Shown: one piece after another, positions 15,974 to 51,513 of the stretch
Position numbering within the stretch: position 1 is the first letter of the stretch
Layout: each line of letters begins with the position of its first letter
NCBI RefSeq assembly: GCF_007745175.1
Contig: NZ_CP036271.1
Coordinates: 1,054,001-1,118,000 of the forward strand
DNA length: 64,000 bases
DNA from: Caulifigura coniformis
Lineage (GTDB): Bacteria > Planctomycetota > Planctomycetia > Planctomycetales > Planctomycetaceae
Direction of reading: 5' to 3'
Program-made: the position numbers and the translations under genes
Notes under the pieces: generated by a model
What the model was told of the DNA's origin: nothing
What the model saw: the letters and a program-made list of their open reading frames with translations, nothing else
Database searches by the model: none

Positions 15974-16450
15974 TTTGAACAATCGCCTTACGAATCATGG
16001 TGACCCGGCCTCCCTCTGCGGGCCGGGTCGAGCGCAAACCACAACCATATCGAGCCCCTCGCCAGCAGTCGAATGCAACGGAAGGGCCCGTCTCCTTCAT
16101 GATTCATTTCCAGACGCCCGGACTGATACTCCTCGGGCTCTTCACCTGTGCGGGGCGATTGGGATACCGGCAGACCTTTCTGGACCGAAGCGTGCGCGCC
16201 GGTGGCAGTGAGCCCCGCGAGGGGCGGCACTGAGTAGCCACGGGCGTCAGCCCGTGGAACCTTATGTCAGCCTGAAAAAGCCCCGAGAGGGGCGACACAT
16301 CGCTTCCACTCACCGGCCCCGTTCCGATGAACGCCCCTTCTCCTTGCGATTGAGGTTCCCCTCCCCCTCGCCTACACTACGGGATTCCGCAGCGGGATGG
16401 GCGCAGGGGCGCGTGTTGCCGGCGGAGCGACTTTCGATTCCCGCTGGCTG
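15974..16450. other. 477-bp divergent intergenic region
   Basis: The stretch between the P5C dehydrogenase start and the YhaM-like start holds the cluster of palindromes at 16212-16293. Short open frames here have no ribosome site or recognisable product. An in-frame ATG at 16397 could lengthen the exoribonuclease by 18 residues. Confidence 0.6.
16212..16293. repeat. Cluster of three short palindromes (REP-like)
   Basis: Three GC-rich palindromes lie within 82 bp: GCCCCGCGAGGGGC (16212-16225), CCACGGGCGTCAGCCCGTGG (16238-16257, 8-bp stem with a GTCA loop) and GCCCCGAGAGGGGC (16280-16293). The outer two are near-identical hairpins with 4-nt loops. Such elements are typical of dispersed intergenic repeats; they sit between divergent genes, so a simple terminator role is unlikely. 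Confidence 0.8.
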
Positions 16451-49826: not shown

Positions 49827-50831
49827 GTGCGCGACCTCGACTCTCTGCTGGCTGACATCGAGCAACTCATCCGCTGCGACCACGCCGGCCGCGGCCTGCT
49901 GTGCAAGGACACCGCGCACTGGCGACAGGGCGATCTCGCCCGCGCCGCCCGCAGCCTGCTCGACCGCCCCGGCGCAGTCGCCATCATCACCGGCTTCGCC
50001 GTCCCGTTCCCCGACGGGCCGATCGCCGAAACCGATGGACCGCTCGGGGCCGCCCTCCTCGGCGAAGTGCTGCATCGCCTTGGACGGAAAGTCGTGCTCG
50101 TGACGGACGATGTCTGTGCTGGAGCCCTCCGTGTGGCGGCGTCCGCGTCCGGCCTGCCGGACGGCTGCGTCGAAGCGATGCCGCTTGCGGAAGAATTCCC
50201 CGATCGTTGGGTCGCCGCCTTCTTCGCGAGGCATTCCCTCGACCACCTGATCGCCATCGAACGCGTCGGCCCCAGCCACACCGTTGCCTCCGTCCTTCGG
50301 CAACCACGTTCGGCCGCCCTCACCGCCGCCGAGTTCGAGCGTCGCGTCCCGCCCGGGCATCGGGATCACTGCCACAACATGCGCGGCGAGATCATCGATC
50401 GACTGACCGCTCCGCTGCATCGCCTCTTTGATCTCGCGGCCGAGTTGCCAGATCCGCCGGCGACAATCGGCGTCGGCGATGGCGGGAACGAAATCGGTTT
50501 GGGCTCTCTTCCGTGGGAAGACATCGCGGGCCGGCTCAAAGGGCCACAGGCCGATTGGCTTCCCTGCCGAATTGCCACTGGCAATACGATCCTCGCGGGT
50601 GTCAGCAACTGGGGCGCAATGGCCCTCGCCGCCGCCGTGGCCGTGATGGCCGGGCGTCCGGAAATCGCCCGGGAATGGACTGTCGAGCGACAGCAACGGG
50701 TACTCGAGACGCTCGTGAGCGATGGGCCGGCCGTGGACGGCGCGACGCGCCTCGCTCAGCCGACGGTCGATGGGCTCACGGTCGACGTCTATCTGGAGCC
50801 GTGGCGTGCGATTGAGCGGCTTTTGACTTGA
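49827..50831 (+). CDS. DUF4392 (D-glutamate cyclase-like) protein
   Basis: The 334-residue protein matches the DUF4392/D-glutamate cyclase C-terminal family: GRGLLCKDTAHWRQGDLARA, VAIITGFAVPF, ETDGPLGAALLGEVLHRLG, GVGDGGNEIGLGSLPWEDI and TGNTILAGVSNWGAMAL. Related mitochondrial enzymes convert D-glutamate to 5-oxo-D-proline; the bacterial substrate is unproven. It starts at GTG, 29 nt after ftsH, and may share its transcript. Confidence 0.85.
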   Translation: MRDLDSLLADIEQLIRCDHAGRGLLCKDTAHWRQGDLARAARSLLDRPGAVAIITGFAVPFPDGPIAETDGPLGAALLGEVLHRLGRKVVLVTDDVCAGALRVAASASGLPDGCVEAMPLAEEFPDRWVAAFFARHSLDHLIAIERVGPSHTVASVLRQPRSAALTAAEFERRVPPGHRDHCHNMRGEIIDRLTAPLHRLFDLAAELPDPPATIGVGDGGNEIGLGSLPWEDIAGRLKGPQADWLPCRIATGNTILAGVSNWGAMALAAAVAVMAGRPEIAREWTVERQQRVLETLVSDGPAVDGATRLAQPTVDGLTVDVYLEPWRAIERLLT

Positions 50832-51002
50832 ACCGCGGTCGTTCCGCCGAGGGGAACGATCGCCCGGCGGAATTCCGGCAGAGACTGGCTTGCACATCAG
50901 TCGTCGATGACCGAGAAAAATGATGTTGGCGGCACTCCGCCGCGCATGGTAGGTTTTCGGCCCCCTGGAGTTCCGGCGGTGGCCCAATGAAGGATGAGTG
51001 AG

Positions 51003-51149
51003 ATGACGGGTTACACGGTTCACACAGGCGCATCGAAGAAATTTGCAACGGGATGGGATCGGGTGTTCGGGAAGGCCGTCAAGAAGACGGCCGCTACCGG
51101 GCCGAAGGCCGCGAAGAAGCCGGCCGCGAAGAAGTCTCGCAGCAAGTAA
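51003..51149 (+). CDS. Small basic protein with histone H1-like tail
   Basis: An ATG at 51003, with GAAGGATGAG just upstream, opens a 48-residue frame. The first half (MTGYTVHTGASKKFATGWDR) looks ordered. The second is Lys/Ala-rich (KKTAATGPKAAKKPAAKKSR) and resembles the tails of histone H1 and bacterial H1-like proteins, suggesting DNA or RNA binding. It is too short for default gene callers but is well placed, 171 nt after the DUF4392 stop and 86 nt before the acidic small protein. A peptide with this opening seems to recur in planctomycetes, but that is from memory. Confidence 0.82.
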   Translation: MTGYTVHTGASKKFATGWDRVFGKAVKKTAATGPKAAKKPAAKKSRSK

Positions 51150-51235
51150 ACAGGAGAGCAGGTCGTCGGCGGCGGAGAACGGACTCCCGTCGCGGGTGAC
51201 AAGCAGAAATTTTTCCCCGGCACGGAGGCTGGAAC

Positions 51236-51460
51236 ATGGCAGACATTCACATCGCTCAGGCAAACGCGGACGAGTACGAAGAAATCACCAGCGAAGAAGT
51301 CGATCGCGTCATCACGGGCCTCGAGGCCCTGATGGGGCAGACGAAGAGCGAAAACATCCGCGCGTATCTCGAAGAGGCGGCCGACCAGATCTTCGAACTG
51401 GTTTACGGCGAAGACGCGGAAGTCGTCGCCGAAGAGACGCCGCTCGAAGAAGCGGCCTGA
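51236..51460 (+). CDS. Small acidic protein of unknown function
   Basis: The 74-residue protein starts at ATG 51236 with GGAGG seven nt upstream. It is strongly acidic (EEITSEEVDRVI, YGEDAEVVAEETPLEEAA) and predicted helical (GLEALMGQTKSENIRAYLEEAA). I do not recognise a family; small acidic proteins often bind partners or act as molecular decoys. It follows the basic mini-protein and is ended by a strong terminator. Confidence 0.85.
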   Translation: MADIHIAQANADEYEEITSEEVDRVITGLEALMGQTKSENIRAYLEEAADQIFELVYGEDAEVVAEETPLEEAA

Positions 51461-51482: not shown

Positions 51483-51513
51483 GAGCCCGCCTTCATGGCG
51501 GGCTCTTTTTTTT
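51483..51513 (+). terminator. Intrinsic terminator after the acidic small protein gene
   Basis: GAGCCCGCC (51483-51491) pairs with GGCGGGCTC (51497-51505), followed by eight T. It lies 22 nt after the stop codon. Confidence 0.93.

Follow-up and report, generated by a model that had tools for sequence, protein, structure and literature searches.

Adjacent genes for a basic and an acidic mini-protein in Planctomycetaceae: a conserved small operon whose basic product may act in translation

In the genome of Caulifigura coniformis (6.76 Mb, single contig) two very short open reading frames follow one another on the forward strand, the first coding for a strongly basic protein and the second for a strongly acidic one. 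The question is whether they are real genes and, if so, whether their products work together, and on what. The original prediction, made from the letters of the sequence, had proposed a nucleoid- or RNA-binding protein with a charge-neutralising partner. The features of the locus are collected in Table 1, in which positions refer to the window, i.e. the whole stretch of 64,000 nt that was analysed. The coordinates of the 48-residue and 74-residue frames and the 86-nt gap agreed with that prediction, as did the two ribosome sites, lying 7-8 nt ahead of the respective starts, and the strong terminator after the second gene. The net charges are +12 per 48 residues (pI 11.0) and -18 per 74 residues (pI 4.05). 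An in-frame ATG is present 9 nt upstream of the basic start (50994, the start in the list of open reading frames), but the start kept in the relatives is that of MTGYTVHTG, at 51003. Rfam gave a single match within the window, an Acido-Lenti-1 RNA (RF01687) at 16211-16257 on the minus strand, with 40.1 bits, above the gathering score.

Table 1. Features of the two-gene locus, in window coordinates.
Feature	Position	Strand	Basis or remark
D-glutamate cyclase-like gene (PF14336), upstream neighbour	49827..50831	+	also upstream of the pair in 5/20 pair loci
Ribosome-binding site AAGGA, basic gene	50990..50994	+	read from sequence
Basic mini-protein gene (type A), 48 aa, MTGYTVHTG...	51003..51149 (with stop)	+	homologues; start and core conserved
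N-terminal core of basic gene, 22 codons, MTGYTVHTGASKKFATGWDRVF	51003..51068	+	conservation; helix predicted at residues 12-22 with moderate confidence
Tail of basic gene, Lys/Ala/Pro-rich	51069..51146	+	length and sequence differ between species
Spacer, 86 nt	51150..51235	+	no convincing terminator; -9.5 kcal/mol for the best local fold ahead of a T run
Ribosome-binding site GGAGG, acidic gene	51224..51228	+	read from sequence
Acidic mini-protein gene, 74 aa	51236..51460 (with stop)	+	predicted helical hairpin, helices 19-35 and 39-67
C-terminal Ala-Ala codons, acidic gene	51452..51457	+	in 72/72 complete relatives; putative ssrA-like degron
Intrinsic terminator, 9-bp stem, loop of 5, eight T	51483..51513	+	-21.4 kcal/mol, z -6.1

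Selection on the two frames was evaluated by comparing homologues codon by codon. In the basic core (22 codons, 20 homologues) 2308 differences fell at the third codon position, against 772 at the first and 524 at the second, and codon pairs with a single difference were synonymous in 1500 cases and non-synonymous in 308; when the same gene was read out of frame the synonymous excess was reversed. For the acidic core (21 homologues) the corresponding codon pairs were 2510 synonymous and 1209 not. Since both cores carry this third-position and synonymous bias, the pair of frames is not a product of chance, and we considered both as genuine genes under protein-level selection, their translation being read from the sequence alone. 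By its codon usage the basic gene did not fall clearly among the ribosomal proteins (P 0.07 versus background, 0.13 versus ribosomal proteins).

Both families were searched for by profile in 297 genomes of the class Planctomycetia. The basic gene was found in 84 of the 84 Planctomycetaceae genomes sampled and the acidic gene in 60 of them, leaving 24 with the basic gene and without the acidic one; outside the Planctomycetaceae the acidic gene was found in 5 genomes, and in three genomes of another family (f4) that carry it the basic gene was undetectable by the profile. Among the matches listed, 43 of the 60 genomes, from many genera, carry the acidic gene downstream of its basic neighbour and in the same orientation, at a distance within 900 bases in 42 cases and of 2.1 kb in one. 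In the remaining 17 the two were not seen together, again among the matches listed: in 3 they are far apart on one contig and in 14 on different contigs, some of which may reflect assembly breaks. In a separate scan of named genomes the basic gene was upstream in 20 of 41 acidic loci, a count in which one basic copy with a GTG start was identified by eye and several unpaired loci lie near contig ends. Conservation of the pair in related genomes had been named by the original prediction as one of the points on which it could fail, and by these counts the pair is conserved.

Terminators were then compared over 19 pair loci. A strong hairpin followed by T residues (below -18 kcal/mol) was found after the acidic gene in nine of them and between the two genes in none; after the acidic gene, seven loci had no terminator candidate and the remaining three had weak ones only. 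Because of the tandem order and of the placement of the terminators, and given that unpaired copies also occur, we consider the pair as a small operon that is conserved though not obligatory.

The basic protein belongs to a family defined, as read from its sequences, by an N-terminal motif of about 22 residues (MTGYTVHTG..KF..GWD.IF, the conserved part) and a Lys-rich tail; it is an undescribed family of the Planctomycetia. By the profile, more distant copies were found across many further families of Planctomycetia, and a wider profile run on 392 genomes of the phylum gave a match in 36, all in Planctomycetia, so that absence elsewhere holds at the sensitivity of that profile. A second paralogue (type B, MSGPIVRTG...) is present within the Planctomycetaceae; in the source genome it lies at 4.18 Mb on the minus strand (L168, G000:C1:4182537-4182698). 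In 9 of the 10 Planctomycetaceae loci examined type B adjoins a gene for a large, conserved membrane-protein-like product (524-651 aa). One family member, at L183 4235-4417 (MTGPIIRSGGSEKY...), has a mixed, rather acidic tail instead of a Lys-rich one, and three others (L223 and L229, of family f8, and L256, of G306) have a slightly longer motif, in which SENRKFAEGW or SESKKFAEGY replaces GSxxKF. The AlphaFold model of the basic protein is poor, with a mean pLDDT of 63 and a single helix of moderate confidence at residues 12-22.

No convincing Pfam, NCBIfam or solved-structure (PDB) sequence match was obtained for the basic protein. With its Lys/Ala-rich, low-complexity tail it resembles Hc1 and Hc2, although it differs from them in having its own conserved motif at the N-terminus and relatives with translation-factor neighbours; Pfam, Hc2 (PF07382) included, yielded nothing for it up to E 10. 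The Hc2 model was reached by one of 24 members of the family (E 3e-4), a match best read as composition, and the NCBIfam H1-like Burkholderia model by one member (E 0.0065). Hence, of the H1-like tail originally proposed, a Lys/Ala-rich tail of the nucleic-acid-binding kind stands, whereas a specific nucleoid role is not supported, the Hc2 match being a single one and the neighbourhood described below pointing to the ribosome. The accessory ribosomal proteins bTHX and bS22 are very short, strongly basic and lineage-specific, and by this description the basic protein is like them, the difference being that it has no sequence match in Pfam, NCBIfam or PDB. Neither it nor its 24 relatives matched TIGR04137, the PVC signature protein, which we take to be CT421.2 of C. 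trachomatis; a true TIGR04137 member is encoded elsewhere in the source genome (70.8 bits, cut-off 50). In kind, the nearest comparison is still with small lineage-specific basic proteins such as the PVC signature protein (PMC3444138), which is likewise small, basic, restricted to a lineage and of a function not known.

In the relatives outside the Planctomycetaceae, the neighbouring genes point towards translation. In 16 of 30 such basic loci, from four families, the gene is preceded on its own strand by one for EttA, 38-2345 nt away (the one copy tested scored 926 bits to TIGR03719, cut-off 807), and nine, eight of them shared with EttA, have a convergent EF-P gene nearby (identity checked on one copy, PF08207); one or both are beside the basic gene in 17 of the 30. 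Within families f5 and f11, EttA and the convergent EF-P flank the basic gene on either side (L179, L181, L185, L187, L215, L220, L225 and L228). Genes for GMP synthase and a ProC-like reductase, named by eye, also recur in these loci, so the linkage is in part that of a conserved stretch of chromosome. By itself the adjacency proves no function; what is conserved is a planctomycete translation neighbourhood.

The linkage to EttA was not found in the Planctomycetaceae: none of the loci examined in that family has EttA beside the basic gene, and in the source genome EttA is at 3.96 Mb versus 1.105 Mb for the pair. EttA is likewise absent next to the six copies that carry the GPI motif. We sorted the copies from outside the Planctomycetaceae by mean BLOSUM score, leaving out two of the 30 loci (L223 and L229) whose motif is one residue longer; of the 17 linked to EttA/EF-P, 11 were A-like and 6 looked nearer to type B, a separation that is only partly clean. 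In two genomes outside the Planctomycetaceae that have both kinds of copy (G079 and G277) the VLH/VLN-type copy is the A-like one. According to PMC6723617 and PMC11381351, EttA and EF-P are both factors of the ribosomal E site, and, because relatives adjoin their genes, a role in translation is favoured over one in the nucleoid.

The acidic protein was modelled as a two-helix hairpin with a core pLDDT >90, followed by an acidic tail of variable length. It has no convincing Pfam, NCBIfam or solved-structure sequence match, and in a Foldseek search with the model nothing scored below E 1.5, which is to be expected of a hairpin with two helices. The original prediction was right in taking it for a genuine gene and missed its most constrained feature, namely that all 72 complete proteins (70/70 distinct sequences and two more), with families f3, f4 and f12 represented among them, end in Ala-Ala. 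Inside the acidic tails (positions -12 to -3) Ala-Ala accounts for 5 of 630 dipeptides, and 0 of 69 background frames of the source genome end in it, these being longer frames chosen by length and codon-position GC and not annotated genes. A dipeptide invariant on an otherwise variable tail is difficult to account for other than through recognition of the free C-terminus.

The ssrA tags usually end in di-alanine, which ClpX contacts (PMC9601184). The tmRNA of the source genome encodes the tag ANKQYALAA, and the invariant end of the acidic protein is like that of the tag and of native Ala-Ala degrons of ClpXP. The residue before Ala-Ala differs, being Leu or Val in ssrA and mostly acidic or Gln in the acidic protein (Glu, Asp or Gln in 59/70), which calls for caution. 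CtrA of Caulobacter is a ClpXP substrate with a native C-terminal Ala-Ala degron. For the end of the acidic protein, a degron of the ClpXP type is the simplest reading and a likely one. Being small, acidic and helical, the protein also resembles Pup, whose C-terminal motif is Gly-Gly-Gln/Glu, and 2 of 40 members weakly matched PF05639 (best E 0.033). A Pup-like modifier was ruled out, given that the acidic proteins end in Ala-Ala and that the Pup ligase PafA (PF03136) gave no match in the source genome, where the positive control was found. Neither of the two families was recognised in the literature searched, most subscription papers lying outside that search.

We tentatively propose, as a possible explanation, that the operon codes for a basic protein that binds the ribosome or RNA and for an acidic partner under proteolytic control. 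The conserved N-terminal motif would anchor the basic protein to its target and the Lys-rich tail would bind RNA; most likely it would act on the ribosome or in translation, since its relatives in other families adjoin the genes of EttA and EF-P. The acidic hairpin would probably bind a basic partner, plausibly the product of the adjacent gene. If its Ala-Ala end worked as a degron of the ssrA/ClpXP type, the level of the acidic protein could be lowered quickly and the basic protein would become less available along with it. Ribosome binding, partnership and proteolysis are steps that we infer, the least secure points being the partnership and the extension to the Planctomycetaceae of an EttA/EF-P context seen in other families. 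A bolder version, which we hold to be rather improbable, is that of a ribosomal or ribosome-associated family specific to the Planctomycetia and working alongside EttA/EF-P, one paralogue of which gained an acidic anti-protein that is removed by way of a tail mimicking ssrA. We know of no proteolysis-gated control of a ribosome factor by such an anti-protein in bacteria.

Other explanations were weighed against the same counts. Simple neutralisation of charge within a pair, as in the original prediction, fits neither the 24 Planctomycetaceae genomes with the basic gene only nor the three with the acidic gene only. These same genomes, and the 17 of 60 in which the two genes were not seen together among the matches listed, agree with two independent small housekeeping genes sharing a transcript, the acidic hairpin and its degron serving another target. 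This is a substantial possibility, though one that we would not call probable: the tandem order in 43 of the 60 (among the matches listed), over many genera and with a spacing of a few hundred bases, is at odds with it, and so is a terminator that follows the second gene with no strong one between the two. The basic protein could instead be an H1-like nucleoid protein compacting DNA, with the acidic one as a histone-chaperone-like neutraliser. The Lys/Ala/Pro tail with its high positive charge, the universal presence of the gene in the Planctomycetaceae sample, the single matches to the Hc2 and H1-like Burkholderia models and the condensed nucleoids described in planctomycetes (PMC3440768 and PMC2656463) would all suit such a role; we consider it unlikely, given that the relatives neighbour EttA/EF-P, that it is the N-terminal motif and not the tail that is conserved, and that each gene is found without the other.

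Two further readings are far less probable than these. Without ABC-F proteins and EF-P, stretches rich in Lys or in Glu/Asp are hard to translate, and the two frames might report the activity of EttA and EF-P as sensors instead of acting as proteins; the linkage of the basic relatives to these genes and the ABC-F sensitivity of charged stretches (PMC11381351) are in line with this. We find it very improbable, however, since both cores are strongly conserved as protein, uncharged residues included, the invariant Ala-Ala is left without explanation and EttA is not beside the Planctomycetaceae copies. A toxin-antitoxin pair, with a basic toxin and an unstable acidic antitoxin, would be consistent with the small size, the adjacency and the likely degron on the acidic partner, but it is hardly credible for a basic gene that occurs in all 84 genomes, 24 of which lack the acidic gene, that lies upstream in the pair and that matches no known family in Pfam or NCBIfam.

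The basic protein of the proposed operon occurs in every Planctomycetaceae genome sampled and yet falls outside convincing coverage by Pfam, NCBIfam and PDB. Should it sit on the ribosome, translation in a phylum on which little molecular work has been done would have a lineage-specific component, and, if the proposed explanation is true, the invariant degron on its conserved acidic partner would open a clear way to study its regulation.
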